This document shows, one piece after another, positions 2,813-38,416 of a DNA stretch of 64,000 nucleotides. The stretch covers positions 196,997-260,996 of the forward strand of contig JAJYZB010000002.1 of the NCBI GenBank assembly GCA_021800275.1, given 5' to 3'. The position numbers and the translations under genes were made by a program. The notes beneath the pieces are model-generated. The model was not told the DNA's origin. It did no database searches and saw only the letters and a program-made list of their open reading frames with translations. Within the stretch, counting starts at the first letter, position 1, and every line of letters starts with the position of its first letter. The stretch is from a bacterium. GTDB taxonomy: Bacteria > Vulcanimicrobiota > JABDET01.

Positions 2813-4921
2813 ATGATGGAATTTTTGCGGGAAAGAATTTCGACTAATTTATCTGAAGAACAGGAAAACCACCTGCGGTCAGCGCTTTCCACGCAGTATG
2901 TTCCAGTTTTTGGTTCCGTAAATGCGAAATTAAAAGGACTTTTGAACGGGAGCGCAAAGGAAGCCTCCTCCTTTCAAGGAGACCTTTTTTTATCAAAAAA
3001 TCTCAGTGGCAAAACGCAAAATTTTTTTTATTATCTAAAAATTGCTTCAGGGCTTGAAATTGGTTCATTTTCCAGTGAGGAAGTTTCTGCAGACCACAAT
3101 GTCTTTGCGCAAACCGTTTTGGCAAGTTTAGGGACAGATGCTCAACGTCGCCGCGTCTCTTCTCTAAACCCGACCTTTTCTTCTTTGTTCCAGGAATGGG
3201 GGGGATTTTCCATTCCTGAAGGTGAACATCTGGCAGCCCGATTATTATTTGATTTAAAAGTAAGATCCTGGTTTAAAGACTTAATAAAATCCGAGAGAAA
3301 ACAGTGGACTGGGTCTAATGAAGACGTGCCTAGAGACATTCTTGATCAGATGGAAAAGCAGGGAATGCTCAAAAGTCAATTTTCTATCTTTTGTTCTTCC
3401 ACTGGAAATCAAATGATGATGGTTGAATCTTTGGAAGCAATAGAAGAAGCGGCAAAACAGGGTTTCAAATGTTTTGTGTGCGGACGTTCTTTCTCAGAAG
3501 AAAAACAGGTCCGATTTGTCAATCCAACTCCCTTTGGGAAAAGAATTGCCATTCCGAATTACTGGCTGGTTCTCCAAACTTATGAATCACTTTGGCCATT
3601 TCTTTCTAAAGATAAGATAAGCGTTATTTTTGAAAAAAACAGCGCCACTCTATTTGCCAATGTGGAGACAAGTCTTCTGTTGTTTGAAATCAAAGATGCT
3701 CCTTATCAGCTGCAGGATGCTTTCCTTTTTGCACAAAAAATTATGCTCTATAATCCAGCTGCCTCCTGTGTTTTTGCAACAGGAGGCATAAATGCAGAAG
3801 TAGCGCAGTATCTCGAATCAGCGCTGCCAGAGCATTTTTACAGGTCAGTAAACTCAAATGAGCAGCTGACAGATGCCCTGCCTCTTCTTTTAGAAAAAGC
3901 TTACCGCAGACATCTACGCGAAATTTTATCTCCTTTTACTCAACTTTCTGTCACCCCAGTCGATCTCTACGCTTTAAGCTATCTATTTTCCGAAGACACA
4001 ATTTCAATCCCGGGTCCCCAGACGGCTGATATTATGCCTCTTCCTGCGATAGAAGAGGTAGTCCCTGCCGCTCCTGAACCTCAACCCTTAAAAACCGAGA
4101 AAATGGATGAAATTCTGGAGACTCTTCCATCAGAAATTTTAGAGTTCGAACCCAGAGACACGATCCTTCACAAATCAAGCAAAAGCGCTGCTCTCGAAAA
4201 AATTCTGCTGGAACTTGGAAAAGGAGGCGCAGGCAGAGAATCCAGTTTACATATTCTGCTTCAAGATTTAAATGATGCGGACAAACGATCCAAAGCCTGC
4301 CTGGTTAGTCAGGATGGACTGGTGATTGCTTCAACCTTACAGGAAGAAATCAGCGAAATGTTCGCTTCTTATGGAACCGAGTTCTTTTCAAAAGCTAAAT
4401 CCATAGTGGAACAAACGAAGTTTTTTCCCATACAACGCCTATTTGCCTCATCCGAAAACTTTTCTCTTCAGATTTACCCTGTGTCCGAGTTTTATCTGAT
4501 TGTTACAACGACTTTAGAAACTGTTGTAACAGAACCCTTGCCTGAAACTTCTCTGCCAGAAGGTCTGAAACAGGTTTGCGATCATCTTCTGGAAAAACGC
4601 GGAATCGAAGGAGTTGAAATTTTAGATTCTGAAGGAAGCAGCTTGTGTCAGGCAGGATTACAGAGCGCCAATAAAACATTTTTCTTGCCCAATTTTTTAT
4701 CGGTTTTTTCAGAACTCGCACCCCGTTTTACCCAAGTTGGACAAGGCAATCTTAAATGTTTAGGTATCCGGGCTGATTCTGAACAAGAAGCTTTATTTCA
4801 AACAGAAAGAGGGCATCTTTTAACTCAAATAAATAGCGAACATCCATTTGAAGATATTGTGCCCGAAGTTCTCCCTATCACTCAAGACATTTCTCGATTT
4901 TTGAAATCAGCCGTACTGTAA
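2813..4921 (+). CDS. Protein of 702 aa with two degenerate roadblock/LC7-like domains
   Basis: I do not recognise residues 1-400, which read as a soluble alpha/beta protein with a CxxC pair at 220-223. A proline- and glutamate-rich linker runs from about 400 to 450. Two C-terminal stretches, about 485-568 and 585-700, carry the roadblock/LC7 signature (ACLVSQDGLVIAS and VEILDSEGSS, each followed by a helix and a beta strand). Roadblock domains dimerise and often bind or regulate Ras-like GTPases. Two ATG codons (2813, 2816) lie behind AGAGGT, and a TATAAT sits at 2792-2797 but without a good -35. The gene lies between the TPR gene and a free-standing roadblock gene, suggesting one complex (inference). 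Confidence 0.75.
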   Translation: MMEFLRERISTNLSEEQENHLRSALSTQYVPVFGSVNAKLKGLLNGSAKEASSFQGDLFLSKNLSGKTQNFFYYLKIASGLEIGSFSSEEVSADHNVFAQTVLASLGTDAQRRRVSSLNPTFSSLFQEWGGFSIPEGEHLAARLLFDLKVRSWFKDLIKSERKQWTGSNEDVPRDILDQMEKQGMLKSQFSIFCSSTGNQMMMVESLEAIEEAAKQGFKCFVCGRSFSEEKQVRFVNPTPFGKRIAIPNYWLVLQTYESLWPFLSKDKISVIFEKNSATLFANVETSLLLFEIKDAPYQLQDAFLFAQKIMLYNPAASCVFATGGINAEVAQYLESALPEHFYRSVNSNEQLTDALPLLLEKAYRRHLREILSPFTQLSVTPVDLYALSYLFSEDTISIPGPQTADIMPLPAIEEVVPAAPEPQPLKTEKMDEILETLPSEILEFEPRDTILHKSSKSAALEKILLELGKGGAGRESSLHILLQDLNDADKRSKACLVSQDGLVIASTLQEEISEMFASYGTEFFSKAKSIVEQTKFFPIQRLFASSENFSLQIYPVSEFYLIVTTTLETVVTEPLPETSLPEGLKQVCDHLLEKRGIEGVEILDSEGSSLCQAGLQSANKTFFLPNFLSVFSELAPRFTQVGQGNLKCLGIRADSEQEALFQTERGHLLTQINSEHPFEDIVPEVLPITQDISRFLKSAVL

Positions 4922-4933
4922 GGAGTGTGATAT

Positions 4934-5281
4934 ATGGAAGAAATTCTTGAAAAATTAAGCCAAACTACAGGTGTCATTGGATGTTTTATCACAGGGCTGG
5001 ACGGACTTGTCGTGGCAAGCAAAATTCGCTCTGATAAGGATCAGGATCTCCTGGCAGCCACAACGGCTGATCTCTTTAGAAGCCTTGGATCCGCTTTCGA
5101 AAAATTAGACGACGGCAAAACCGTGCTACTGACCATTGAGAGAACTAACGATAAAATTTTCATTTATCCCCTGGAAAACATGGAAACTATTCTGGTGGTT
5201 TTAAGTGAACCTAAAATCAATCTAGGGTTGATCAGGATGGAACTTCAAGAAGCCTTGAAAAAATTGAAGAATCATTTCTAA
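4934..5281 (+). CDS. Single-domain roadblock/LC7 protein (115 aa)
   Basis: This is a typical stand-alone bacterial roadblock domain: helix, then GVIGCFITGLDGLVVAS, a central helix, and two more strands ending in a C-terminal helix. Such proteins are dimers that modulate small GTPases such as MglA in gliding and pilus polarity systems, but no MglA-like GTPase gene is in this window. An AAGGAG-type ribosome site lies in the 12-base gap after the preceding 702-aa gene, so the two are co-transcribed. It likely pairs with the roadblock-like domains of that neighbour. The domain call is strong; the cellular role is unknown. Confidence 0.85.
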   Translation: MEEILEKLSQTTGVIGCFITGLDGLVVASKIRSDKDQDLLAATTADLFRSLGSAFEKLDDGKTVLLTIERTNDKIFIYPLENMETILVVLSEPKINLGLIRMELQEALKKLKNHF

Positions 5282-5397: not shown

Positions 5398-6543
5398 TTG
5401 GCAAATTTTATTAGTAAACTTTTTCTGCTTACCGTGCTTTCAGCTTTTTGTCTTTCTGTTTTTTTTAATTCCCCCCCTGTTTGGGGAAACAGCAGCAGTC
5501 GGATCAAGAAACAGTGGCTGCTGAAGAAAGTAGAAGCTGCTCTGGGCGGATCTAAAAATATTCAGAAAATACAGACTCTTTCTTTTTATTGGAATGCGGC
5601 TGCCGCTGAAGCCGGGGAATCTGGATCGGTTTCTGAAAATTCCCAAGAGTTAGGAAAAGGGGAAGAATGGCTGACTATAGAGGGGAACGACCATATTCAT
5701 GGATCCTCTGCCTACAGCGGAGGGTCCACTGTGGAAGTGCTTTCTAATGGGCGTCAATCATTAAAAGTACCTGTCCTTGTTTCTGCTTTAACGCAAACTC
5801 TCCCGAGCAGTGGAGAAAACTGCTCAACAGGTCAAAATCCACTTTGCGTAAGCCCCTTATCCCTTGATTTTAATCCCTCTTTCAGGAATGCTGTTATGCA
5901 CGTTTATGCGAAAAACTTCACCGAAACAATTATTGAAAAGGACAACTGCCATGGAATTGCCTCTGTAAGTCCATCCTCAGGGAAAGGACCTCAGGTTTTT
6001 TTTAAAGTCAAAACAGATCATCCGGGCCGCTGTTTTATTACATTTAGTATAGATTCTCCTGCTGGCTGGCTTTTAAATGGGGATCAAGGAGCTGTTGGAA
6101 CCAGCAGTGGAAGCACCAGCACAGGCCAAATCTCAGGCCCTGATCTGTCTCGGGAGATTTCCAGGGTTTATTGGAAAACTTTTTCCTACCTGACTGCAGT
6201 AGGTCTCAGGGGAAAAGTGGATGATACTGTTAAAATAAAGGCTTCTCATTATATTCTAAAAATGTTCCCTGATGGAGGTGATCCGATTAAAGCATTTATC
6301 AGCAGAACAACTTTTCTTCCCGTAAAAATTCAGCTTGGGAATGACAGTGATCCAACCAGAGAGGTGATAAAATTCAGTCAATGGAAATGGATTAAAGGAG
6401 TTAGATTCCCTTTTAAAACCCTAACTTACTCTGTGGACCAATTCAGCGGAATCCCAAGAGTTGAACGGTTTGTTTTCAAAAAAATTCAGATCAATGCAGC
6501 TATTCCAAAAGGAGCATTTAAAAAGCCTCAGCCAGCGCTGTGA
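5398..6543 (+). CDS. Family A exported protein, copy 1: LolA-like with Ig-like insert
   Basis: A signal peptide (about 1-30) is followed by a helix with ALGGSKNIQKI and then beta-rich sequence. Residues about 152-222 look like a bacterial Ig-like strand set with Cys142, Cys150, Cys184 and Cys212 (VSPSSGKGPQVFFKVK, PGRCFITFS). The C-terminal third (YILKMFPDGGDPIKAFISRT, later EVIKFSQWKWIKGVRFP) resembles the concave sheet of LolA/LppX-like or DUF4292-type proteins. The start is TTG behind GAGAGGG, as no ATG fits. A paralogue at 12795-14045 keeps the same segments. It heads the A-B-C cassette, 17 bases before family B. Fold placement is tentative and no function is known. Confidence 0.75.
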   Translation: MANFISKLFLLTVLSAFCLSVFFNSPPVWGNSSSRIKKQWLLKKVEAALGGSKNIQKIQTLSFYWNAAAAEAGESGSVSENSQELGKGEEWLTIEGNDHIHGSSAYSGGSTVEVLSNGRQSLKVPVLVSALTQTLPSSGENCSTGQNPLCVSPLSLDFNPSFRNAVMHVYAKNFTETIIEKDNCHGIASVSPSSGKGPQVFFKVKTDHPGRCFITFSIDSPAGWLLNGDQGAVGTSSGSTSTGQISGPDLSREISRVYWKTFSYLTAVGLRGKVDDTVKIKASHYILKMFPDGGDPIKAFISRTTFLPVKIQLGNDSDPTREVIKFSQWKWIKGVRFPFKTLTYSVDQFSGIPRVERFVFKKIQINAAIPKGAFKKPQPAL

Positions 6544-6560
6544 AAGGATGATAAAGTAAA

Positions 6561-7892
6561 ATGAAAGCAGCAAAAATGATTGTTTTTTTATTCCTCTTAT
6601 GCACAGTCAATTTTTTCGCGGTGGGAGATCCGATCTCTGGATTTTCTCCTGGGTTTGTGGAAGGGCATGTTTTCTCAGAAGGCAAACCCTTAGCAGGAGC
6701 TAAAATTGACGTATTAGGTGTGGTTGTCAATAAGAAAACAGGGAAACCTTCAGCTTATACGATCTGCGGCGAAGGCTTCGCTTTTTCCACGGCTAGTGGA
6801 ACTTATGCTGCTGGAGTCAGCAGATTGAATACGTGTGAAAAAAAGAAGAAACCCAATTACAAGTATGAAGTCGAGGTATCAAAACGGGGTTACATATCGC
6901 AGAAAACCTTTATCAGTTTTAAAGAACGGCAGATCATTCAAAAAAATTTCATTCTGGTTCCTTCCAATATTTCGATTCAAGTTCATGTGGTAGGTCCTGG
7001 AGGCAGAAACATTCCTTATGCGTTTGTTATCCTAACAAAAAATATTGTTTTCACAAATGCCAAGCAAATTCTCAGCACCCGACTTACAGAGGTCGCCAGT
7101 GAAGCCCCTCTTTTTCGCACGGACCAAAATGGAATGGCTGTCATTCCTGTTTCTCCTGGGGATTATAAAGTCACAGCCCAGAAATTAGGGTATCAACTGG
7201 CAACCCAAAATCACAATCCTCTTGCAGATGCAGCCTGCAAAAAGTTTGAGCAGCGGGCTCTACGTTTTCATATTACAGGAAGCAGCAGCTGCAGCCATCA
7301 GCTTTATCCAGGCGCTTTTATCCATGCCAGCGCTGCCGGAACTGTTTATCCTGCTGTTCTTGAACTTGTTCCACAAACCGCTCCTCATTTTGTACTGCCA
7401 AAAGCCTATCAACAGTACCTGGCGAAAATGGCTCAAAAACTTAAAAAAGAAAAAACCGCTGCTTTTATTCCAGATCAGTTTATACTGATCGGATTTTCTC
7501 GACTTTCCCCGAACAACGTTTTTTTCTTCCAGATGCAACACCTTGCCCAGAATAGCCAGGGAGCAGTGATCGGGATTCTCAGATCCAATCTTCTGCTGAG
7601 CGGGGAAAAAATCGCTCCTCACTCGCATCTGAAGTTTTTTAATCCTCTGCTCTACGGTTATCCCAGCGCTGTCAGCGGATGGTTAGAAAAAAAAGGAATC
7701 ACCCCGTCTGACCGCTTAATTTACTCTTTTACAGATCCTACGGCTGAACCAGGCAGAACCTATTACTATTATGTGGGTGAGCTTCCTTATACAAGTTCTT
7801 ATGCAGTTCCTGGAAAAGAGGAAATGAATCTGAAAATTCAGCAGACAGCAGAACCAAGCTCCAATCCAGTAGAGGTTGTAACCCAAAAGTGA
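6561..7892 (+). CDS. Family B exported protein, copy 1: carboxypeptidase-regulatory-like repeats
   Basis: A signal peptide (about 1-22) precedes two CarboxypepD_reg/PEGA-like beta-sandwich domains. The first (about 32-135) has GHVFSEGKPLAGAKIDV and VEVSKRGYISQKTF; the second (about 138-225) has IPYAFVIL and FRTDQNGMAVIPVSPGDYKV. The C-terminal part (about 300-443) ends in TDPTAEPGRTYYYYV, which reads like a fibronectin-type strand pair. Such modules form binding or spacer domains on secreted proteins; no enzyme motif is present. The paralogue at 14122-15474 shares the order of segments, including FSPNNV/LSPNNV and the SFTDPT motif. It lies 17 bases after family A and 59 before family C, so the three are probably one transcript. 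Confidence 0.75.
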   Translation: MKAAKMIVFLFLLCTVNFFAVGDPISGFSPGFVEGHVFSEGKPLAGAKIDVLGVVVNKKTGKPSAYTICGEGFAFSTASGTYAAGVSRLNTCEKKKKPNYKYEVEVSKRGYISQKTFISFKERQIIQKNFILVPSNISIQVHVVGPGGRNIPYAFVILTKNIVFTNAKQILSTRLTEVASEAPLFRTDQNGMAVIPVSPGDYKVTAQKLGYQLATQNHNPLADAACKKFEQRALRFHITGSSSCSHQLYPGAFIHASAAGTVYPAVLELVPQTAPHFVLPKAYQQYLAKMAQKLKKEKTAAFIPDQFILIGFSRLSPNNVFFFQMQHLAQNSQGAVIGILRSNLLLSGEKIAPHSHLKFFNPLLYGYPSAVSGWLEKKGITPSDRLIYSFTDPTAEPGRTYYYYVGELPYTSSYAVPGKEEMNLKIQQTAEPSSNPVEVVTQK

Positions 7893-7951
7893 AATGCAGT
7901 TGTTGAAATTTAAAGCATGACTATCATTTAAAATAAAAGGAGGAATTACAA

Positions 7952-8761
7952 ATGTTCAAAAATAGATTTAATTTTTTTTTAGGGGCAGCGCTGCTTCTGG
8001 CTTCTGCAGCAGGAATTGTTTATGCTGGCGGAGGGATGAAACAGCTTTTCCTAAATGGAGTGGTTGTGTCAAACCGAATCAGGATGATGGATGGTGTCCC
8101 TTATGCCCCACTTCCTGATGTGGCGCGAGCTCTCAATCTCAGACTTTCTGCAGTTTCCACTGGATATGCGCTTACTGGCAGAAACTCAGGGACTGCTGCG
8201 CCTGTGAAATCTGCATCTAAAATCAAAGTGCCTCTGACAAACCTTCCTGCAAAACTGAATACTCAGGACTCCCACACTGTTGCTGTAGTCAATAATGTGA
8301 AAGCCAATCTAAATGAGTCTTCACATTCTTTATGGCTTCCCTTGAGCAGTCCAAGAGTGAAACAGGTCATGTCTGATTCATACTCCAATCCTTACTGGAC
8401 CCCGCCTATGACGATCAATGGACAGACTTATGGCAGCGGATATTTTATTCAAGCGTATAACGGGGGTCCTGGGATTTTAACCTTCTGGCTGGATCACCGC
8501 GGCTTTACAAAACTTCATGCTCTTCTTGGATTAGATGATCATGTGCAAGGAGACAATGCTGCTGTTTGGACTGTAACTTTTCTTGGAAATGGAAGAGCTT
8601 TAAAAACAGTGCAGGTGGATGCCTCTGACAGTCCGATGAAAGTATCAGTCCCTCTTTCAGGGGTCAATACTCTGAAAATTCAAGCTTCTGTTGATGGTCA
8701 GTGCTCCTGTTTTCCAGGGTTAGATATTGTAAATCCTGTTCTCCAGAAACAAACTAAATAA
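7952..8761 (+). CDS. Family C exported protein, copy 1: stalk domain plus NPCBM-like domain
   Basis: After a signal peptide (about 1-25) comes a copper-amine-oxidase N-terminal 'stalk' type domain (about 28-72: LFLNGVVVSNRIRMMDG, PYAPLPDVARALNLRL). A linker leads to an NPCBM-like carbohydrate-binding beta-sandwich (about 145-262: TYGSGYF, ALLGLDDHVQGDNAAVWTV, FLGNGRALKTVQV, LSGVNTLKIQ). Binding to cell-wall or extracellular glycans is a family-based inference. AAAGGAGG lies upstream of the ATG. Two closely related paralogues lie at 16569-17357 and 17378-18163. It ends the first cassette, just before a convergent tRNA-Ala gene. Confidence 0.8.
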   Translation: MFKNRFNFFLGAALLLASAAGIVYAGGGMKQLFLNGVVVSNRIRMMDGVPYAPLPDVARALNLRLSAVSTGYALTGRNSGTAAPVKSASKIKVPLTNLPAKLNTQDSHTVAVVNNVKANLNESSHSLWLPLSSPRVKQVMSDSYSNPYWTPPMTINGQTYGSGYFIQAYNGGPGILTFWLDHRGFTKLHALLGLDDHVQGDNAAVWTVTFLGNGRALKTVQVDASDSPMKVSVPLSGVNTLKIQASVDGQCSCFPGLDIVNPVLQKQTK

Positions 8762-8822
8762 AAACGTTCGAGCCCGCCGGTAAATCAGGCATAAATCCTG
8801 GTGGAGCTGAGCGGGCTCGAAC
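8760..8822 (-). terminator. Probable terminator that borrows the tRNA-Ala T arm as its first half
   Basis: Bases 8766-8777 are a perfect 12-base inverted complement of 8811-8822, which lie in the T arm of tRNA-Ala. Read on the minus strand the second arm is followed by CG and a T run (TTTTTATTTA). The loop is about 33 nt, long for an intrinsic terminator, so this is a suggestion and not a certain call. Confidence 0.45.
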
Positions 8823-8874
8823 CGCCGACCTTCTGCATGCCGAGCAGACGCTCTCCCAACTGAGCTACAGCCCC
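8799..8874 (-). tRNA. tRNA-Ala(GGC), CCA encoded
   Basis: The reverse complement folds as a full cloverleaf: acceptor GGGGCTG with CAGCTCC, anticodon stem TCTGC/GCAGA with loop TCGGCAT (anticodon GGC), T arm with GGTTCGAGCC, discriminator A and encoded CCA. The third acceptor pair is G-U, the classic alanine identity element. It lies convergent to the family C gene. Confidence 0.95.
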
Positions 8875-9136
8875 AAGGCATTTGAACAAGTTCAAGAATA
8901 TACCGCTTTATTCCTGCCATTAGTTTATTTCACTGACTGCTTAAAATTAGTTTTACAGCATTTTGATATTTGATCCATTTTATTTATGAGAGAATGTTGA
9001 CATACTTTCTTTTGAGTCCAGAATAAAATAAATTTATTTTCTGATGATCCAGATCACTGCCAGGAAATTGTCAGAATTTGTAGAAATTTATGCTCGTTAA
9101 TGAAAAGAACTGACATAAAGTATAAGGAGGTCAAAA

Positions 9137-9466
9137 ATGAGCATTCTTTTGACATCAAGAGCAACAGAAGAGATTAAGAGGGTCAGAGAAGAGCAGAAGC
9201 TGCCCACAGAAACTCCATTAAGAGTTGGTGTAAAAGGCGGAGGGTGTTCTGGTTTCTCTTATTTCATGGGTTTTGAACCCAACGTTAGAGAAGATGACCA
9301 ATCTTTTCAAATTGATGGGGTTAAAGTCGTTGTTGATTCGAAAAGCCTTTCTTATCTTTCAGGAATCGAACTGGATTTTAATGAAGACATGCTGAATCGC
9401 GGCTTTGTATTTAAAAATCCGAACGCTAAAAGCACCTGCGGCTGTGGGCATTCATTCACTGTTTAA
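9137..9466 (+). CDS. erpA: A-type iron-sulfur carrier (HesB/IscA/ErpA family)
   Basis: At 109 aa it has normal family length and the three conserved cysteines: one in GVKGGGCSGFSY and two in the C-terminal STCGCGHSF. Proteins of this family accept Fe-S clusters from a scaffold and deliver them to apo-proteins in the cytoplasm. Which subgroup (ErpA, IscA or SufA) cannot be settled by eye; no isc or suf genes are adjacent. The ribosome site TAAGGAGG is strong. An imperfect FNR-like palindrome (ATGATCCAGATCAC, 9044-9057) lies upstream, but its spacing to any likely -10 is not canonical. Confidence 0.92.
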   Translation: MSILLTSRATEEIKRVREEQKLPTETPLRVGVKGGGCSGFSYFMGFEPNVREDDQSFQIDGVKVVVDSKSLSYLSGIELDFNEDMLNRGFVFKNPNAKSTCGCGHSFTV

Positions 9467-9571
9467 TTTCTGCTTCTAAAGGAATCGTTTGCCGAAATTT
9501 TATCATGCGCATTTTCTTAAGCGCGGCGCACTGAAGTTCTGGGGCGAAAACTGAGGGTTCAAGGATTGATA

Positions 9572-10348
9572 ATGACAGAATATGTTTTCCCTCATCCGCA
9601 GGAGTTAGAAGATCCACAGATTCATCCTCCCAAGAAAAAACGGGGTTTCCGTGGAGTTCTTGCCTCTGTGTTAGCTGTTTTAGCAAAATTTAAAGCAGTG
9701 CTTATGGCAGGCACCATGTTTTTAAGTATTGCTCTGTACGCCTGGGCATGGGGATGGCCCTTTGCCGTAGGGTTTGTGCTGCTCATCTTTATCCATGAAA
9801 TGGGACACGCTTTTGCTTTAAGAAGGCGCGGAATTCAAGCCAGTATTCCAATCTTTGTTCCTTTTGTAGGAGCTTTTATTGCGATGAAAGAGATGCCGAA
9901 AAATGTGGCTTTAGAGGCTGAAACCGCTTTTGCCGGTCCTTTATTAGGAACCCTGGCAGCCTTAATCCCCTGGCAGATCGCAGAAACCACGAAAAGTCCA
10001 TTTTGGATGAGTCTGGCATATACAGGTTTTGCCATTAATCTTTTTAATCTGCTGCCTATTCTGCCTTTAGATGGGGGAAGGATTTCTGCGGCTATCTCCC
10101 CTAAAATCTGGTTGATCGGAATTATTGGTGTTGTCATCCTTCTTTTTTATTCTTTTAATCCTATTCTAATTTTAATCATTATTTTGTCTCTGCCTCGAAC
10201 TATTGAGGCATTTCGTGGGGTTACAGATTTGGATTATTACAACATTTCTCCTGGGGCAAGAACGTTGACGTTTGTTGGATATTTTGGATTGGCTTTGTTT
10301 TTAACTCTGATGATGGTTTTAACCTATCATCCTGTGCATATAGGGTAA
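9572..10348 (+). CDS. Site-2-type intramembrane zinc metalloprotease (M50 family)
   Basis: It carries the zinc motif HEMGH (in IFIHEMGHAFAL) and the second motif NLLPILPLDGGRI, whose Asp completes the active site, set among about five or six hydrophobic segments. These proteases cut substrates inside the membrane, often in regulated proteolysis. No PDZ domain is seen, so it belongs to the short soluble-facing rhomboid-like/FtsH-like M50 group and not the RseP type. ATG 9572 is chosen over the TTG at 9566 because AAGGA is properly spaced from it. The stop lies 5 bases before the prolyl oligopeptidase gene, so the two are likely co-transcribed. Confidence 0.9.
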   Translation: MTEYVFPHPQELEDPQIHPPKKKRGFRGVLASVLAVLAKFKAVLMAGTMFLSIALYAWAWGWPFAVGFVLLIFIHEMGHAFALRRRGIQASIPIFVPFVGAFIAMKEMPKNVALEAETAFAGPLLGTLAALIPWQIAETTKSPFWMSLAYTGFAINLFNLLPILPLDGGRISAAISPKIWLIGIIGVVILLFYSFNPILILIIILSLPRTIEAFRGVTDLDYYNISPGARTLTFVGYFGLALFLTLMMVLTYHPVHIG

Positions 10349-10352
10349 TAGG

Positions 10353-12410
10353 ATGAAGTATCCTGCTGCAAAAAAAGTGAATAAGGTTGACAGTTATCAC
10401 GAAGTTTCTATTTCAGACCCTTATCAGTGGCTTGAAGATCGGGAAAAACCTGAAACCGAAAAGTGGATAGAAGAACAAGGTCAGTTGTGGAATCATTTTT
10501 TGTCTTCTGTTCAGGGCAGAGATGTCATTCAAAAACGACTTGAGTCTTTAATTTATGTTCCTCAGATTGATGTGATGCCTTATGAGTATTCTGGTGAGAA
10601 ACCTGTATTTATGGGGGGTGAAAATTATTTTTTTTCACGAATCTTCCCCGAAAAAAAATTAACTGTTATTCAAATCAGGAAAGGGCTTCACGGGGCTGAA
10701 AAAACCCTCCTGGATCCAAACTCTGATTCTCCTGATGGGGAGATTTCCTATCAGATTATGGCAGTGTCAGAGGATGGAGCTTTTTTAGTGTATGGGATCA
10801 GAAAAGGGGGAGAAGATGAATTGATTCTTCAAATCTTGAATGTGAAAACAGGAGAGAATCTCCCTAACTTTTTTCCAAGAAAACGGTATGAAAAAGTTCG
10901 GTTTGCCCCAGACAGTAAAACTCTTTTTTACATGGTCTTCACAGATGCAGGTCCCCGCATTTATTCCCGTCTGCTTGAAACAGATGGGATCTCGGATAAG
11001 GAGATTTTCGGCAGGGAATTCGGTCCGAATCAATGGATTGACTTTTCGCTTTCCGCCAATGGGGAAAAGATTCTTTTAACAGTTATTGAAGGGGCTTCCA
11101 ATAATTACACGCGCGGAATTTATTTGTTGAATCTGACAGCAAATAAACTGCTGACAATAGCAGAAAATCTAGAAGGTCATGTTTGCGGAGAGATATTAGA
11201 GAATGAAGTTTATCTTCATACGAACTGGAAGGCATCCAATGGGCAGATTGTAAAATTTAATCTGGATCATTCTTCACCTGAGGAATGGAAAGAGATTGTT
11301 CCTGAAAAGGATAACACGGTCATTGTTAATTTTTCCATTATTGACAGCCATATATTTGTGAATTATGTTAAAAATGCTGCATCTTGTATTAAGATATTCG
11401 ATCTGTCGGGGAAGTTTTTAAAAGAACTCAATCTTCCTACCCTGGGGACAGTGAATCAGATCTGGGGGGATCTAAATAAAGAGTTTGCGTTTTTTGATTT
11501 CGAGTCATTCCTTCATCCTAAAACAATTTATTGGGAGCGCTTGTCAACTGGGGAACAAGAAATCTGGTTTCAATCAAATCCCCCTATCCATGCAGAACAA
11601 ATGGAAATGAAACAGGTTTGGTATAAATCAAAAGATGAAACTTCTGTTCCTATGTTTATTGTTCATAAAAAAGGGATCTCATTGGATGGCGGCAGCCCTA
11701 CACTCTTAACAGGGTACGGCGGATTTAATATCTCTATAACTCCGTATTTTGACACTCCCAGCGGCCCCTTCCCATACCTTTTTTTGGAAATGGGAGGGAT
11801 TTTTGCTCTAGCAAATATTCGTGGAGGAAGCGAATTCGGAGAAAAATGGCACAAAGATGGAATGCGCGAGAAAAAACAGAACTGTTTTGACGATTTTATT
11901 TCAGCTGCCGAATGGCTGATTCAGAATCATTATAGTTCTCCAAAGAGACTGGCGACCATCGGGGCATCGAATGGAGGGCTTCTGGTCGCAGCTGCTTTAA
12001 CCCAGAGACCTGATCTTTTTAAAGCTGTAATCTGCGGGTATCCTGTTTTAGATATGCTGCGGTATCCTAAACTAGATCCTCTCAGTCCTCTTTGGGGAGT
12101 TGAATTTGGCTCTCCTGAAATCCTTGAAGAGTTTGAATACCTGTTGAAATATTCCCCCTATCATCATGTAGTGGCTGGAGTCCACTATCCTGCTGTTCTT
12201 TTTATAACAGGTGATTCTGATACTCGTGTTTCAGCAGCGCATGCGCGAAAAATGACAGCAAGGCTGCAAGCTGCTACAGCTTCTGAGAATCCTATCCTGA
12301 TTTCGCATTCCATGAGTGCTGGACATTCTCCAGGAGGTTCTTTGAATGCGAAAGTTAATGGTGGGCTAGAAAGACTCTGGTTTTTGAAAAAGCTGATTTT
12401 TGATGGTTGA
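10353..12410 (+). CDS. Prolyl oligopeptidase family serine peptidase (S9A)
   Basis: At 685 aa it has normal length for prolyl oligopeptidase: an N-terminal stretch typical of the family (SYHEVSISDPYQWLEDREKP), a seven-bladed propeller region, and a C-terminal alpha/beta hydrolase. The catalytic Ser lies in IGASNGGLLV, the Asp in TGDSDTRVSAAHARKM and the His in SAGHSPGGS. It would cut short peptides after proline. No signal peptide is seen, so it is probably cytoplasmic. It follows the M50 protease gene by 4 bases, which makes a small peptidase operon. Confidence 0.93.
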   Translation: MKYPAAKKVNKVDSYHEVSISDPYQWLEDREKPETEKWIEEQGQLWNHFLSSVQGRDVIQKRLESLIYVPQIDVMPYEYSGEKPVFMGGENYFFSRIFPEKKLTVIQIRKGLHGAEKTLLDPNSDSPDGEISYQIMAVSEDGAFLVYGIRKGGEDELILQILNVKTGENLPNFFPRKRYEKVRFAPDSKTLFYMVFTDAGPRIYSRLLETDGISDKEIFGREFGPNQWIDFSLSANGEKILLTVIEGASNNYTRGIYLLNLTANKLLTIAENLEGHVCGEILENEVYLHTNWKASNGQIVKFNLDHSSPEEWKEIVPEKDNTVIVNFSIIDSHIFVNYVKNAASCIKIFDLSGKFLKELNLPTLGTVNQIWGDLNKEFAFFDFESFLHPKTIYWERLSTGEQEIWFQSNPPIHAEQMEMKQVWYKSKDETSVPMFIVHKKGISLDGGSPTLLTGYGGFNISITPYFDTPSGPFPYLFLEMGGIFALANIRGGSEFGEKWHKDGMREKKQNCFDDFISAAEWLIQNHYSSPKRLATIGASNGGLLVAAALTQRPDLFKAVICGYPVLDMLRYPKLDPLSPLWGVEFGSPEILEEFEYLLKYSPYHHVVAGVHYPAVLFITGDSDTRVSAAHARKMTARLQAATASENPILISHSMSAGHSPGGSLNAKVNGGLERLWFLKKLIFDG

Positions 12411-12488
12411 TGAGGATTATGCTCGGTTCCACGAAAAAAACGCGCGCTGAAGTTTTGAAATTGGAGTGAGAGCATGACTAACGAATGG

Positions 12489-12740
12489 TCATCCCAAAAA
12501 GGGAAGGATTTTTGAATCACTTCGCAAGTAATGCTCTGCAATGGCAAAATTTTTCCCCTCCAGAAATGATTCGAGTGTATATTGTTGAAAGGCTCTAAGT
12601 TCTGTTAAATCTCTCGAAATCTCGGCAAGGCGCTGATTCAGAAGATTTTGATTTAAGGACAGCTGAGCAAAACGTATTATCCTTTGATTTACAGAGAATT
12701 TATTAGAAGGATTTTGGAGTTTCCTAATGAATGTGATAAT
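12489..12740 (-). pseudogene. Possible coding remnant, antisense in the 378-base gap after the peptidase gene
   Basis: The bases 12411-12788 hold no forward gene. On the minus strand one frame is open for about 83 codons between stops and reads protein-like (NQRLAEISRDLTELRAF, YTLESFLEGKNFAIAEHYL), yet it has no ATG or GTG start. A second frame continues rightward-to-leftward with FWDDHSLVMLSLQFQNF toward the peptidase gene. This looks like the eroded end of a gene with a frameshift. I cannot assign a family. Confidence 0.3.
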
Positions 12741-12794
12741 TTAAATTTTATCAGGAGTTAAATTTTACCAGCGAAAAGTTTGAGGTGAATGACG

Positions 12795-14045
12795 ATGAAA
12801 AAAATCTCCTTTCTTACATTTGCGAGAATTTTTCTCGCGGGAATTTTCCTCACTGGTTCTGCTCTGGCAAAAACACCAAACTACGGGACTACTGGCGCCA
12901 GCGCAAAAACTTCCTCCTCTAAAAAATCAAGCCTTAAAAAACCAAAGTTCAGCAAAATGACGACAGCTCTTTTACTGAAAAAGATGGCTGATGCCCTGGG
13001 TGGATTAAGTCATATCGAGAAAATTCATTCCCTTTATTTTGAAATCTATAAAGTGAAGATAAAAATAAGACATGCAGGGCAGCCTCTTTTTATGTCCATG
13101 GGAAATACAGAGGTCAAAGACTGGATGACAATGGACGGAAATGATCGGATGAAAGTGCGTTCTGCAGCTTATGGAGCCCCTCCTACTTTAATGGTGATTT
13201 CCAATGGACAAGAAAGTGTAAAAATACCGGTAACAGTCACTTCTTCAAGTCAATATCGGCTGCCAGCTCCAGGAGGAAACTGTTCGAAACCCTCAAATTC
13301 ATCCTCAAATCCGCTCTGTGTCAATGTTTTTTCTCTAAATTTTAATCTGGGTTATTACAAGTTTCACTCGAACCTATCCCCAGCAGCTAGATTCAGCGCT
13401 TCTGAAACTGGCTTTACTGGAACTATTTTTGAAAGTAATACCTGCGGGAAAACTGCAGTGATTTCTCCTGCTTCTATAAGAGGAGGGCAGGGCTTTTTCA
13501 CAGTAACTCCAAAGCGCCCCGGGAAATGCGCCATTACAGTTTCTACAGATTCTCCTGAAGGGTGGTTTTTAGAAGGAGATCAAGGGATGATCGGAACCTC
13601 TAATGGGAGCAGCAGCACAGGTCAAATGTCAGGCATAGATTTGGAGCGAGAAATTTCAGGTCTTTACTGGACAACTTTTGCTTATCTGAACCCAGGAGGA
13701 CTTCCTGGAAAAGTAAGTTATAAACCGCTGACTGGCGGACTAGATTATGTTCTGCAAATGAATCCGGATGGAGGAGTCCCTATGACAGACTATATCAATA
13801 AAAAAACATTCCTTCCTGACAAACTGCTGTTGGGAAATAATACGGATCCATCAAGAGAATTAATGAAATTCAAATCCTGGAAAACAGTCAATGGCTTGAA
13901 ATTTCCATCTGTTATGTTAGTTAACCCATTTTTTGCGAATTCCTCAAACATGAATTCTTTCAAAATGAAATATCTGTATAAAAAAATTAAAGTGAATGTT
14001 AAAACCACAAAAAACATGTTTAAGCAGCCAACCCCTGCGATTTAA
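12795..14045 (+). CDS. Family A exported protein, copy 2
   Basis: This is a paralogue of the protein at 5398-6543, 416 aa from the ATG at 12795, which is favoured over 12789 because GAGGTGA then has normal spacing. It has a signal peptide (about 1-25) and a Ser/Lys-rich linker. ADALGGLSHIEKI follows, then the Ig-like insert with paired cysteines (NTCGKTAVISP, PGKCAITVS). The conserved GQMSGIDLEREI and YWTTFAYLNPGGLPGKV precede the LolA-like C-terminal sheet (PDGGVPMTDYINKKTFLPDK). It heads the second cassette and is followed by family B. Function is unknown; an outer-membrane or surface role is inferred from export and fold. Confidence 0.75.
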   Translation: MKKISFLTFARIFLAGIFLTGSALAKTPNYGTTGASAKTSSSKKSSLKKPKFSKMTTALLLKKMADALGGLSHIEKIHSLYFEIYKVKIKIRHAGQPLFMSMGNTEVKDWMTMDGNDRMKVRSAAYGAPPTLMVISNGQESVKIPVTVTSSSQYRLPAPGGNCSKPSNSSSNPLCVNVFSLNFNLGYYKFHSNLSPAARFSASETGFTGTIFESNTCGKTAVISPASIRGGQGFFTVTPKRPGKCAITVSTDSPEGWFLEGDQGMIGTSNGSSSTGQMSGIDLEREISGLYWTTFAYLNPGGLPGKVSYKPLTGGLDYVLQMNPDGGVPMTDYINKKTFLPDKLLLGNNTDPSRELMKFKSWKTVNGLKFPSVMLVNPFFANSSNMNSFKMKYLYKKIKVNVKTTKNMFKQPTPAI

Positions 14046-14121
14046 TAAAGAAATGACTGAGAGAATCTGGCGATGGAAACACCGAATAAGGTTCCACTGG
14101 AGCCTTAAAAAGGAGGAAGAG

Positions 14122-15474
14122 ATGAAAAATTTTTCGAGAGTTTTTCTGGCAGCGGTTTTATGGATTTTATGGATTCTGATAGGGGTTCCTTTTTCTGCCC
14201 ATGCTTTCCCAGGTGGGTCCAATGAAGCTTTTGTGGAAGGAAATATCATGGCAGGGGATACGGGAAAACCAATAGGCGGGGCTAAAATTTTTATCCTTGG
14301 AATGAAGCTTACGAAAAAGAAAGGATGGAAACCCAACCAGGGATGTGGAATGGGGTTTGCGCTTTCTGCAGGAAATGGAAATTATGCGGTTGGAGTTGGG
14401 CATACTAATTTATGTATTAAGAAAAAAATGCCATTTAATGGAACTTATCTTGTGGAAGTTTCAAAACGAGGCTACCTCACTCAAAAAAAGAGAGTGGCTT
14501 TTTCTCTGGGCACAAATGTCATTGGAAATTTAAATTTCACTCTTATGCCTTCTCACTCTTATATCCATGCTCATGTAACAGTAGGGGCTAACTCTCTTCC
14601 TTATGCCATGGTGATCATCATGAAAAATCCATTTTCAGGGATCATGAAAACAATGAATATGCCGTCAGGGCAGTACACGACCAAACTCAAACCCTCTAAG
14701 AGGTTTGGACCTGAATTTACAGTCCATTATGCAAACTTTTTTCGGACTGACAAGTACGGAAATGCAACCATTCCTGTTTCTCCTGGGGATTATATGGTAG
14801 AAGCTAGTAAAAACGGATACACCCTGACAACAAGAAATGTCAATCCGCTGATGCAGGCATGGGGAGCTCAAATGGCGCAGAATCCATTTATGTCCCCTGC
14901 CATGCGTCAAAAAATGACGGACAGTTTTGACAAACCAGAGAAAGGAGTTTTTGTTCATGTTGTTAATGGAGGAACTGCTGTCGCCAACCTTACTCTTATG
15001 CCTGGGAGCGCGATAAAGTCCGCTCCCTATATTGGAGGCAGTCCTAAAAAAACTTTTATTCCTGTGGAGTATTCCTTAGATGGCCAGGCTCGATTTTCTC
15101 CAAATAATGTTCTTTTCTTTACCCTTGAAGAAACACCGCCTCATGACGACGCCTATTTGTTAGATATTGTTCGCTCTCGAGTCCTTCTTGGTTCAGGGAA
15201 AGTAGATCCTTTTAAAGCCCACATTAAAACATTCAATTTTGCTGTTTACGGCTGGCCGAGTCCTATCTGGTGCATTCATCAAGGAGGAATCTCCCCCTCA
15301 CACTGTATTCCCGACCGTTCTATTTCTTCTTTCACAGATCCAACAGGGAAGCCTGGAAGAGTTTATTATTACTACATTTTTGAGAGCAGCGCCCCTTCTT
15401 TTCGAGGAGGAAAGTTAAATATCTTTCGATCAGGAACCCCTTATTCCAATGCTGTTCAGATTGTTACACACTAA
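14122..15474 (+). CDS. Family B exported protein, copy 2
   Basis: The start is ATG 14122, behind AGGAGG and directly before a signal peptide (MKNFSRVFLAAVLWILWIL, cleavage near AHA). The frame is open further upstream but that part overlaps family A and lacks export features. Two carboxypeptidase-regulatory-like domains are visible (VEGNIMAGDTGKPIGGAKIF; FRTDKYGNATIPVSPGDYMV). A C-terminal region with YSLDGQARFSPNNVLFF and SSFTDPTGKPGRVYYYY follows. All segments occur in the same order in the copy at 6561-7892. It probably encodes a secreted adhesive or structural partner of A and C; no catalytic motif is seen. Confidence 0.75.
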   Translation: MKNFSRVFLAAVLWILWILIGVPFSAHAFPGGSNEAFVEGNIMAGDTGKPIGGAKIFILGMKLTKKKGWKPNQGCGMGFALSAGNGNYAVGVGHTNLCIKKKMPFNGTYLVEVSKRGYLTQKKRVAFSLGTNVIGNLNFTLMPSHSYIHAHVTVGANSLPYAMVIIMKNPFSGIMKTMNMPSGQYTTKLKPSKRFGPEFTVHYANFFRTDKYGNATIPVSPGDYMVEASKNGYTLTTRNVNPLMQAWGAQMAQNPFMSPAMRQKMTDSFDKPEKGVFVHVVNGGTAVANLTLMPGSAIKSAPYIGGSPKKTFIPVEYSLDGQARFSPNNVLFFTLEETPPHDDAYLLDIVRSRVLLGSGKVDPFKAHIKTFNFAVYGWPSPIWCIHQGGISPSHCIPDRSISSFTDPTGKPGRVYYYYIFESSAPSFRGGKLNIFRSGTPYSNAVQIVTH

Positions 15475-15676
15475 GCCTTACACCAAAAAAGGAGAAATAC
15501 GAGCTTTATCTCGCTAAAAGGAATGACAGAATCGCTGCAAAATAGAACATGGATACGAATTAAAGTGAATAAAAGAATAAAATAAAAATCAAAACTACTG
15601 AAATAGGAGGTGAGAGTGAATTCTGGTCATTGGGTAATCATAAAGCAGAGTCTGTTAATCATTAAGGAGGAATTAA

Positions 15677-16372
15677 ATGAAAAAATATTTTTTTAATCGT
15701 TTCTTTCTTTTAGCGGGATTATCTGTTCTTTTTTCTTTTATCCTGGTGCAGGTTTCTAAAAATGCATTGGCTTCTTTCCAGTTTGGGGCATCGAATTCAG
15801 CGAGAATGCCTGCACGCTTTTTCACTGGAGTCTGGCAAGGACGTAGAATCAGAATCTGGAATGTCCGCAATGTGACTGTAGAAAAACTTTCTGATGCCAG
15901 AAAAGTGGGAGTTCTCCGAGATTTTATCGCTCATGAACCCACCACATCTCGCCCCCCTTTCTACTGCCTGAATGGGAAAACTTTAAACGTCTGGGTCGCT
16001 CCTCATGAATTCCCAGGAAAATATGTGGTTCACAATGGAATGCAGGGGCCCCAGTGCACTTATGGAACCTGGGTGTTTGCTGTGAAGCGCCCACCTGTGA
16101 GGTTTTTCACTGGAATCTGGCAGGGACGCAGAATCAGAATCTGGAATGTCCGCAATGTGACTGTAGAAAAACTTCCTGATGCCAAAAAAGTGGGAATTCT
16201 CCGAAATTTTATCGCTCATGAACCACGCACTGCAAGACCCCCTTTCTATCTCCTGGATCATGAAACCATCAATGTCTGGGTTGCTCCTAGAGAATTTCCA
16301 GGGAAATATGTGGTTCACAATGGAATGCAGGGACAACAGAAGACTTATGGAACCTGGGTGTTCAAAAGATAA
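15677..16372 (+). CDS. Family D exported protein made of two near-identical 95-aa units
   Basis: A signal peptide (about 1-33) leads to two copies of one unit, each running from RFFTG(V/I)WQGRR through RIWNVRNVTVEKL and FIAHEP to KYVVHNGMQG and TYGTWVF. The first unit has an extra cysteine pair absent from the second. I do not recognise the domain. The unit is rich in Trp, Arg and beta-strand patterning, as in a binding domain. It has a strong AAGGAGG site and sits between family B and two family C genes in the second cassette. No counterpart exists in the first cassette. Confidence 0.75.
   Translation: MKKYFFNRFFLLAGLSVLFSFILVQVSKNALASFQFGASNSARMPARFFTGVWQGRRIRIWNVRNVTVEKLSDARKVGVLRDFIAHEPTTSRPPFYCLNGKTLNVWVAPHEFPGKYVVHNGMQGPQCTYGTWVFAVKRPPVRFFTGIWQGRRIRIWNVRNVTVEKLPDAKKVGILRNFIAHEPRTARPPFYLLDHETINVWVAPREFPGKYVVHNGMQGQQKTYGTWVFKR
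15815..16372 (+). repeat. In-frame tandem duplication, 285-bp period
   Basis: Unit 1 covers 15815-16099 and unit 2 covers 16100-16372. Long runs are identical at the DNA level, for example the stretch from 15851 matches that from 16136. The low divergence indicates a recent duplication or ongoing gene conversion inside the family D gene. Confidence 0.9.
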
Positions 16373-16468
16373 GAAAACTGCTGCAGAAATGGACTTACTG
16401 AATCCTGTTAGATAATGAATAGAGATACATAAGCTGAATTAAATCAGAGATCATGGAAGACTTATTGA

Positions 16469-16493
16469 CCCTGCCAACTGGCAGGGTTTTTTT
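16469..16493 (+). terminator. Intrinsic terminator after family D gene
   Basis: CCCTGCCA (16469-16476) pairs with TGGCAGGG (16479-16486) and is followed at once by seven T residues. It separates the D gene from the two family C genes, which therefore need their own promoter or read-through. Confidence 0.85.
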
Positions 16494-16568
16494 CTGTCAC
16501 TTTTTTCTGCAGGAGTTAGGTGAGTCAGCTAGAAAAACAGCAAAAATAGAATCAAGGAGGGGAATAAA

Positions 16569-17357
16569 ATGCTGTGGTTTAAACAAAAATGGTTTTTCCT
16601 GGCTGCATTATCTTTATTGATCGGTTTTGGAACTGCTTATGCGGCAGGGAGACTTAAACTCCTGATCAATGGGGTTGTCGCCTCAACTCATGTCATCACA
16701 TTTAATGGAGAAGCATACGTTCCGGTAAAGGACGTAGCGCGCGCCCTGAACATGAAAGTGATGCATTCAGGCTCAGAATATAATCTGTCCCGAAACAGTG
16801 GAAGCTCATTCCAGGCTGCACAAAATGCGGCTCAACGGAAAACGCTTCCTCTTACCAATATCCCCGCCAAAGTGGAGCACAGCGCTAATAATCTCGTTGT
16901 GGTGAACAATGAAAAAGCGAATATCCTCAATATGCCAGCAGCCCAGTGGATTTCTCTCAGCAATCCGAAAGCACAGGGGATAGCGAATGACTGGAACCCT
17001 CCTATGACGATCAGTGGGCAAACTTATGGAAGCGGTTATATGTTCCTGTTTTACGGCTCGCCAGGGGATCATGAAACCCTGACTTACTGGCTGAAAGGGC
17101 GGCATTATTCAACCCTGACTGCTGATCTTGGTTTTGATGATCATGTCCAGGGAGACACCGCATCTGCTTTTAAAGTGTCATTCCTGGGAAATGGGAGGCT
17201 TCTGAAATCCATTCAGGTGAGCGGCTCCAATAATCCAGCCAGAGTGAAAGTTCCGATTTCAGGGATTCTGACCCTGAAAATTAAAGTAAAACTTTCAGCC
17301 CCGTGCAGCGGCTGTTATCCTGCACTTGACATCGTGAACCCGACATTGAGCAAATAA
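16569..17357 (+). CDS. Family C exported protein, copy 2a
   Basis: This 262-aa paralogue of the protein at 7952-8761 has a signal peptide (about 1-25) and a stalk domain (KLLINGVVASTHVITFNG, YVPVKDVARALNMKV). A linker follows, then an NPCBM-like domain (TYGSGYMFLFYG, DLGFDDHVQGDTASAFKV, FLGNGRLLKSIQV, ISGILTLKIKV, two close cysteines near the end). AAGGAGG precedes the ATG. It is followed 20 bases later by another family C gene, so the pair arose by tandem duplication. Glycan binding is inferred from the NPCBM resemblance. Confidence 0.8.
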   Translation: MLWFKQKWFFLAALSLLIGFGTAYAAGRLKLLINGVVASTHVITFNGEAYVPVKDVARALNMKVMHSGSEYNLSRNSGSSFQAAQNAAQRKTLPLTNIPAKVEHSANNLVVVNNEKANILNMPAAQWISLSNPKAQGIANDWNPPMTISGQTYGSGYMFLFYGSPGDHETLTYWLKGRHYSTLTADLGFDDHVQGDTASAFKVSFLGNGRLLKSIQVSGSNNPARVKVPISGILTLKIKVKLSAPCSGCYPALDIVNPTLSK

Positions 17358-17377
17358 AAACAAGGAGGAATGAGAAA

Positions 17378-18163
17378 ATGAAAAAGATAAAATTTGGAGT
17401 TTTTGTTCTGGCTCTTGCCAGCCTTTTTGCAGGAGTCATGGCTTACGCGGCAAGTCGTTACAAAATTTACATGAATGGAGTAGTGATTTCTAATCATGTG
17501 GTTATTCTGCACAGGAAACCTTATGTTCCACTGGCAGACCTGAGCCGAGCCCTGAACCTGAAAGTGAGAAAAACAAGAGATGGGTGGTCAATCTCGCAGG
17601 GAACAACAACTACCTCTCAAGGACAAACCTCGCAAAATGCGGCTCCAAAGAAAACACTTCCTCTCACTAACATCCCTGCTAAAGTGGATAGGGATGCCAA
17701 TAACTGGGTTGTTGTGAACAATATAAAAGCCAATGTTAATGGAATGGCTAATATGCTCTGGTTTCCACTCAATAATCCAACAGTTCAAAGTGACATGTCA
17801 TCTGTCTGGACCCCTCCTATGACGATTAAGGGCCAGACTTATGGAAATGGTTACACGTTTCAGTTTGGCAATGGCGGACATGAAACCCTGATTTACTGGC
17901 TCAAAGGAAGACACTATACAAAACTGACTGCCACTCTGGGATTAGATGATCACCTTCCAGGGGATGCGGGCGCCGCTTTCAAGGTGACGTTCACTGGAAA
18001 CGGAAAAATCCTTAAGACAATCACCGTATCATCAAACAATAACCCAACCCATGTATCGGTTCCAATCTCAGGCATCATGACTTTGAGAATTAAGGTGAGC
18101 CTGCTTGGGAGCTGTCCGTGCCTTCCTGGATTGGATATCGTAAACCCGACATTGAGCAAATAA
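17378..18163 (+). CDS. Family C exported protein, copy 2b
   Basis: The 261-aa product has the same plan as its neighbour: signal peptide, stalk domain (KIYMNGVVISNHVVILH, YVPLADLSRALNLKV), Thr/Gln-rich linker, NPCBM-like domain (TYGNGYTFQFG, ATLGLDDHLPGDAGAAFKV, ISGIMTLRIKV, CPCLPGLDIVNP). The endings DIVNPTLSK of the two neighbours are identical, and the copy at 7952-8761 ends with a close variant. It has an AAGGAGG site and lies 21 bases before the TMEM43-like gene. Function unknown beyond likely extracellular binding. Confidence 0.8.
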   Translation: MKKIKFGVFVLALASLFAGVMAYAASRYKIYMNGVVISNHVVILHRKPYVPLADLSRALNLKVRKTRDGWSISQGTTTTSQGQTSQNAAPKKTLPLTNIPAKVDRDANNWVVVNNIKANVNGMANMLWFPLNNPTVQSDMSSVWTPPMTIKGQTYGNGYTFQFGNGGHETLIYWLKGRHYTKLTATLGLDDHLPGDAGAAFKVTFTGNGKILKTITVSSNNNPTHVSVPISGIMTLRIKVSLLGSCPCLPGLDIVNPTLSK

Positions 18164-28677: not shown

Positions 28678-29652
28678 TTGCAGCCTAATCAAGATTTGTC
28701 TCCCAGGCAGAAAGCCGCGATTTTAATTATGTCCCTTCCGCCTGAACTTTCGGCACAGGTTTTACAGTCATTTCCTCCTGAAGAGGGACAAGCCCTCACT
28801 TTAGAGATGTCGAAAACCGCCAATATTCCTCAAGACGTTAAAGACCGTGTCATTAAAGAATTTCTGGAGACTTCTAAGGTTCACGGACAAACTCAGCAGC
28901 CGCAGCAGAATATCCAATCCGTTCCCCGAAGGGGAGAAGAAACCGATCAAAAAAGAAATTACAAAACAGGAAAGCCTTTTGCGTTCCTCATGCGCGCTGA
29001 TCCAGGGCAGATTTTAACTCTGCTCGAAAAAGAACTTCCTCAGACGATTGCTCTGGTTCTTTCAAATCTATCTGCCGCCCAGGCAACCGCTGTTCTGCAG
29101 GAAATGAATCCCCATTTACAGGGTGAAGTCGCCAGAAGATTAGCAGAAATCAGCAGAGTAAGGACAGAAATTATAAGAGATGTGGAAATGGTTTTAGAAG
29201 ATCGCTATTATCTCCTTGTTGAGAATGGATTTTCCAGTTCAACAGGCAAAGACACCTTAATGCAAATTCTAAACCGCACCGATCGTTCAACAGAAGAAAA
29301 AATCTTATCGGGTTTAGCGCGGAAAAGCCCGAAACTTGCTGGCAATTTAAAAAACCAACTGTGTGAGTTTGAAGATTTAATCTACCTTGAAAAACCTGGG
29401 ATGCAGCAGCTTTTAAAGGTAACTGATATTCGAGATCTAGTCATGGCGCTGAAAGGAACCTCCCCCGAGATTTCTAATAAAATTTATGAAGCGATGTCTC
29501 CCGAAAAAGCAGTGGCTGTCCAAGAAGACGTCGAAGCATTAAACGCTCCATCCTGGGAGGAAGTAAAAGCGGCTCAGCAGCAGATCCGAAATAATTTAAG
29601 AGGATTAATCATAATTGGGAAAATTAAATTTTCTCCTCCAGGGATAAACTAA
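28678..29652 (+). CDS. fliG: Flagellar motor switch protein FliG
   Basis: At 324 aa the product matches FliG from the N-terminal SPRQKAAILIMSLPPELSA through the middle domain (LEKELPQTIALVLSNLSA) to the C-terminal torque domain (EFEDLIYLE...DIRDLVMALKG). It forms the rotor ring that meets the stator and connects to FliF and FliM. The start is TTG 28678 with GAGG at proper distance; the nearby ATG at 28665 runs into a stop. It heads this operon. The usual preceding gene fliF is absent here, so the MS ring must be encoded elsewhere. Confidence 0.95.
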   Translation: MQPNQDLSPRQKAAILIMSLPPELSAQVLQSFPPEEGQALTLEMSKTANIPQDVKDRVIKEFLETSKVHGQTQQPQQNIQSVPRRGEETDQKRNYKTGKPFAFLMRADPGQILTLLEKELPQTIALVLSNLSAAQATAVLQEMNPHLQGEVARRLAEISRVRTEIIRDVEMVLEDRYYLLVENGFSSSTGKDTLMQILNRTDRSTEEKILSGLARKSPKLAGNLKNQLCEFEDLIYLEKPGMQQLLKVTDIRDLVMALKGTSPEISNKIYEAMSPEKAVAVQEDVEALNAPSWEEVKAAQQQIRNNLRGLIIIGKIKFSPPGIN

Positions 29653-31800: not shown

Positions 31801-31801
31801 C

Positions 31802-32266: not shown

Positions 32267-32339
32267 AGTTTACAGTTTTTTAACAAAAAGGCAACAAAAC
32301 CGTAAACCAAAAGATTTATGATAGAGATAGGAGAAATCA

Positions 32340-32906: not shown

Positions 32907-32917
32907 GAGAGATAAAA

Positions 32918-33862: not shown

Positions 33863-33874
33863 GGAGGATGAAAT

Positions 33875-34726: not shown

Positions 34727-34772
34727 CCTTTTTGCACCCTGTCCGACTGCCTAAATACAGAGAATAATCTTA

Positions 34773-34802
34773 TTGGACAAGAGATTAGAGATGTGTTATA
34801 CT
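34773..34802 (+). promoter_or_regulatory. Possible internal promoter before fliM
   Basis: TTGGAC (34773-34778) and TATACT (34797-34802) are 18 bases apart in the 77-base gap between the hook-type gene and fliM. If used, transcription would begin at about 34809, downstream of the first ATG of fliM, and translation would start at GTG 34849. Confidence 0.4.
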
Positions 34803-34803
34803 G

Positions 34804-37337: not shown

Positions 37338-37340
37338 GAC

Positions 37341-38410: not shown

Positions 38411-38416
38411 TGGATC

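Follow-up and report, generated by a model that had tools for sequence, protein, structure and literature searches.

The window analyzed here, a 64,000-nucleotide stretch of DNA, carries two blocks of genes for paralogous exported proteins, A-B-C (5398-8761) and A-B-D-C-C (12789-18163), with every gene in both on the + strand. Our results indicate that the real unit is neither A-B-C nor A-B-D-C-C but A-B, an old and inseparable pair found in few lineages, which C joined only in this genus. The features discussed below are as follows.

5398..6543, + strand: A1, exported LolA-like protein of 381 aa with an insert module, TTG start; 41% identical to A2, orthologue on contig C7 of the sister genome, weak LolA_like match (E 0.27)
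5752..6051, + strand: insert module of A1, ~100 aa with two conserved Cys pairs; columns missing in A of G053 and G109, homologous to the tandem ~85-aa repeat of the phylum
6561..7892, + strand: B1, exported protein of 443 aa with CarboxypepD_reg-like domains and an FN3-like C-terminus; PF13620 over cut-off (E 1.1e-7), 38% identical to B2
7952..8761, + strand: C1, exported NPCBM/CBM51 protein of 269 aa with a stalk-like N-terminal domain; PF08305 over cut-off (E 7.8e-11), 74% identical to C of sister contig C7
12789..14045, + strand: A2, second LolA-like protein, 418 aa; 41% identical to A1 and 62% to A on sister contig C1
13209..13547, + strand: insert module of A2, ~113 aa (residues 141-253); columns absent in G053 and G109, homologous to the same repeat
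14122..15474, + strand: B2, second CarboxypepD_reg/FN3-like protein, 450 aa; PF13620 over cut-off (E 6.2e-9), 67% and 58% identical to the two B on sister contig C1
15677..16372, + strand: D, exported-type protein with two ~95-aa repeats (direct repeat D1, 84% identical DNA)
16467..16488, + strand: terminator-like hairpin between D and C2, 9-bp stem (6 GC) and T run
16569..17357, + strand: C2, NPCBM/CBM51 protein of 262 aa; PF08305 E 5.8e-11
17378..18163, + strand: C3, NPCBM/CBM51 protein of 261 aa; PF08305 E 1.5e-12, 56% identical to C2
18185..19336, + strand: TMEM43-family membrane protein; PF07787 E 4.6e-52, neighbour in L058 80% identical

A first-pass annotation of this DNA had described the same exported families recurring in two blocks in these orders, and both the orders and the paralogy were confirmed. 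Identity was 41% between A1 and A2 (362 aa, pairwise E 1e-86), 38% between B1 and B2 (471 aa, E 5e-79) and 46-56% among the C paralogues (C1 and C2, 46%, E 4e-75; C2 and C3, 56%, E 2e-93), and the three motifs it had named (GQ-SG-DL-REIS, SFTDPT and GLDDH) are present in the alignments. The distance between the blocks, given there as about 5 kb, was measured as 4.0 kb; this gap contains a tRNA-Ala (- strand), a small HesB/IscA-like protein, an M50 peptidase and a prolyl-oligopeptidase-like protein. With the start of B2 set at 14122 (GGAGGAAGAG upstream), and the longer mechanical ORF from 13996 not used, the genes are separated by 17 bp (A1-B1) and 59 bp (B1-C1) in block 1, and by 76 bp (A2-B2), 202 bp (B2-D), 196 bp (D-C2) and 20 bp (C2-C3) in block 2, followed by 21 bp between C3 and the TMEM43 gene. 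The tRNA was the sole match of an Rfam search; as an integration site it was rejected, because the relatives checked have no tRNA close to A-B.

The pairing of A and B holds across the phylum. A, recognized by more than its insert alone, occurs in 11 of 149 genomes, and all 11 also encode B on the same strand (Fisher p = 9e-16 by genome and 5e-6 by genus, with 4 genera). Where both genes are complete, B comes next after A at a gap of up to about 76 bp, the exceptions being an array in the sister species (G001), in which a C-type gene intervenes, and G143, whose A is split by a contig end. In G051, A is frameshifted and B is a stop-containing remnant (L063, contig C17, about 8929-10254), so both members of the pair appear to have decayed jointly. 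Beyond these 11, G002 has a short B but no A, and three further genomes gave partial matches to B domains. A B profile search of genome contigs matched a sister-species contig only, and among 388 relatives of all ranks, including a sample of other phyla, no B was found outside the phylum at E <= 1e-15. In G138 we count three A-B pairs, a copy number made unsafe by the 7% contamination of the assembly.

The A and B trees contain the same type-1 and type-2 groups, and the A and B distance matrices are congruent (mirror-tree r = 0.95, 0/5000 permutations); since the permutation ignores shared ancestry, this r shows joint inheritance, not contact. Moreover, dN/dS values of 0.09-0.49, of which those with dS above 1 are rough, indicate that the A and B genes are maintained by purifying selection. 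Beside A-B in the relatives we found no conserved third gene or secretion gene hinting at a pathway. When the profiles were followed across relatives, independent scatter proved false for A and B but largely true phylum-wide for C and D. The co-inherited, ordered set that had been proposed therefore stands for A and B but not for A-B-C in fixed order, C being confined to the genus and its position permuted.

Both A and B begin with a hydrophobic stretch of the kind seen in signal peptides and lack TM segments after it, and we infer that their site of action is extracytoplasmic (periplasm or cell surface). The domain calls of the first-pass annotation (LolA-like, carboxypeptidase-regulatory-like and stalk/NPCBM-like) were right in outline. 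For A, no family exceeded its Pfam cut-off: PF17131 (LolA_like) gave E 0.27 for A1 and at best E 0.025 among the 13 members, and the PF03548 (LolA) profile had no match in the own genome. The C-terminal part of A (last ~80 residues) aligned with PF17131 LolA_like proteins of the phylum at an HH probability of 65%, in a region with the motif 'I..YIN..TFLP.K...FP...N...F.QP'. In both genomes of the genus, the nearest relative of A outside its family is the N-terminal domain of a 628-aa retropepsin-PDZ protein (A profile E 5e-24 in the own genome and 2e-26 in the sister genome; HH 99.7%). 'LolA-like' is thus the best label for A but, judged by this homology, the 65% HH probability and the lack of any family over cut-off, a remote one. 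AlphaFold predictions of A (3 sequences) and B (4 sequences) were unusable (pLDDT 37 and 36), their alignments being shallow because only sequences from the window and L093 were used. A PDB search with the A and B profiles gave no meaningful match.

The retropepsin-PDZ proteins (L066:6279-8162 and L067:5971-7845) carry the A-homologous domain without the insert and have no B partner, whereas A has neither a protease nor a PDZ domain. Their N-terminal domain being the closest outside relative in both genomes, one could suppose that A and B regulate or feed this protease as the source of A's domain. However, the protease gene lies on another contig and is unlinked to A-B in any relative examined, which makes such a role very improbable.

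The insert occupies residues 119-218 of A1 and 141-253 of A2 and contains all four conserved cysteines of A. It is absent from A of G053 and G109; therefore, it is a removable module and not essential to a mechanism common to all A. No Pfam family matched it. Over 85 residues, however, it shares 40% identity (E 1e-14) with a unit repeated in a different exported-type protein of the phylum, and searches with the A profile recover insert-type repeats again and again, frequently as tandem arrays, in long open frames of relatives (up to 1585-1782 aa). These matches point to a module that is common in the repeat proteins of the phylum and that may reasonably be called Ig-like. A Cys-paired ~85-aa repeat (NC.GiA.isPaSg.Gp.a.FtVt....G.C...V.D), for which no Pfam model was over cut-off, was seen in exported-type proteins of the phylum at L010, L011, L016, L017 and other loci.

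For B, CarboxypepD_reg (PF13620; transthyretin-like) matched 16 of 16 proteins at E up to 1, with 36.5 bits for B2 against a cut-off of 32.3. The protein is made up of two carboxypeptidase-regulatory-like domains and an end that is FN3-like by inspection. At its C-terminus every homologue has SFTD (16/16), three or four consecutive Tyr and an SN late in the sequence; this end (SFTD...YYYY...SN) and conserved Cys pairs distinguish B from other CarboxypepD_reg proteins. Two Cys pairs are conserved in B and one in C. An NCBIfam search returned nothing relevant, and B is without an NCBIfam model. The short B of G002 (L077, contig C70, 1909-6119) lies directly after a protein of the CsgG family, to which the curli secretion channel belongs, and has on its other side, by inspection, an ECF-type sigma factor and a FecR-like protein, a neighbourhood which hints that B-type proteins may have a regulated role at the surface or in secretion.

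The NPCBM domain of C is well supported, with PF08305 scoring 42.6, 43.0 and 48.2 bits on the three proteins against a cut-off of 23.9 and the C profile matching the CBM51 structures 2vmg/2vmh at E 9e-4. Its stalk-like N-terminal domain is weak (E 0.036 for C2), whereas a paralogue encoded at another place in the genome (L064) gives a clearer match to the stalk domain (Cu_amine_oxidN1; E 6e-4). In GH95CBM51, the sugar-binding site consists of an aromatic platform and a hydrogen-bonding His (PMC9513282). Compared with known NPCBM/NEW2 (CBM51) proteins bearing such a 'stalk', C is not fused to an enzyme, has a closely spaced C-terminal Cys pair and is restricted to the genus. The earlier suggestion of a glycan-binding assembly did not gain from the gene neighbourhoods: no glycan or surface-assembly gene lies consistently beside A-B, which leaves the CBM51-type domain of C as its only basis.

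In the sister species, contig C7 has the order C-A-B and contig C1 the order A-C'-B-C'-B-X-C-TMEM43, where X is a 345-aa PKD-domain protein and C' has kept the NPCBM half but has a different, swapped N-terminal domain. In the trees, A1, B1 and C1 of the window fall with the contig C7 proteins, whereas A2 and B2 fall with those of contig C1, which indicates that the duplication happened before the two species split. Of the idea of a set copied as a unit and then expanded, duplication followed by expansion, both older than this split, is upheld, but A-B-C as a single unit of fixed order is not. The flank of block 1 differs in the sister species, with a Dam-type methylase-like ORF after B, and the stretch read there contains none of the roadblock, TPR, M50 or prolyl-oligopeptidase neighbours of the window.

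Whether C belongs with A-B functionally depends on how this arrangement is read. If A-B were a functional pair beside which an unrelated family, C with TMEM43, had merely expanded, one would understand that no genome outside the genus has C next to A-B, that the position of C is permuted, and that the TMEM43 gene directly follows C in both species (C3 in the window). The terminator-like site at 16467-16488, the strongest of the scan, likewise parts C2-C3 from A2-B2; A2-B2, D and C2-C3-(TMEM43) are therefore probably not one transcript, and block 2 probably comprises at least two. A simple promoter scan gave no matches above chance. Yet C accompanies A-B at both loci in both species, even on separate contigs with differing flanks, and the sister array has C' between A and B and again between two B genes, so we regard an unrelated C as unlikely. 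D, which no known family covers convincingly, was rejected as a member of the cassette: its homologue in the sister genome, with three repeats and long polyproline linkers (L059:8668-9777), is unlinked, lying 12 kb from the cluster there.

We tentatively favour, at somewhat less than an even chance for the model as a whole, an exported A+B module with A as carrier of a hydrophobic ligand, B as scaffold and C as a later recruit. Proteins of the LolA/LolB superfamily fold as an 11-stranded β-clam with a hydrophobic groove. A hydrophobic ligand pocket is common to members of the LolA-fold superfamily (PMC6363788). Correspondingly, A would be a LolA/LolB-type half-barrel holding a lipid or a lipoprotein acyl chain, the LolA link being remote, with PF17131 below cut-off and an AlphaFold pLDDT of 37; one of its loops would carry the phylum-typical, β-sandwich-like module, which probably adds a protein contact. 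B is predicted to be rod-shaped, with two transthyretin-like (CarboxypepD_reg) domains and one that is FN3-like, and to serve as the dedicated partner or scaffold of A. We infer that A-B is probably an exported, disulfide-stabilised pair of a hydrophobic-ligand-binding A and a scaffold-like B. In this genus the module was duplicated ahead of the divergence of the two known species, and on this model soluble sugar-binding proteins of the CBM51 type (C) were recruited beside it and multiplied, perhaps as a tie to envelope or biofilm polysaccharide.

Alternatively, A, B and C could be secreted adhesive or structural proteins of a surface or biofilm matrix, the LolA-like part of A being only structural. 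The CarboxypepD_reg and FN3-like domains of B, the recurrence of the A insert in frames of up to 1585-1782 aa in relatives, the NPCBM of C and the short B directly after a CsgG-type protein all fit such a set. But there is no anchor, no secretion signal past the signal peptide and no conserved secretion gene beside A-B, and C is missing outside the genus; a matrix set is possible but on the doubtful side.

Under the carrier-and-scaffold model, A resembles LolA/LolB-fold proteins (PF17131 LolA_like, LolA, LolB, RseB and LprG) in being of exported type and in the alignment of its C-terminus with PF17131, and differs from them in falling below the Pfam cut-off, in its large, removable insert with two Cys pairs and in its strict pairing with B. 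What is new here is two undescribed exported families of a poorly known phylum and their strict A-B pairing, within known kinds of domains. The stronger statement, that A-B is an undescribed two-component envelope system in which a Lol-type carrier of hydrophobic cargo, fitted with a plug-in loop module for recognition, works with a single dedicated transthyretin/FN3 partner and is extended by C in one genus, seems to us quite unlikely to hold in full. The homologues differ in whether they have the insert, in copy number and in whether sugar-binding partners accompany them, which amounts to a natural experiment. Should A prove to be a carrier of lipids or lipoproteins that has a partner of its own, the pair would point to an envelope transport step specific to its lineage; otherwise, it still offers a clean example of how a set of exported genes was duplicated and reshuffled.

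Elsewhere in the window, genes for a 702-aa roadblock-domain protein and then a small, MglB-like roadblock/LC7 protein lie directly upstream of block 1 (2813-5281), and a long flagellar gene cluster (FliG, FliH, FliI, FlgE-like, FliP, FliR, FlhB and FlhA, by inspection) occupies 28678-41707.
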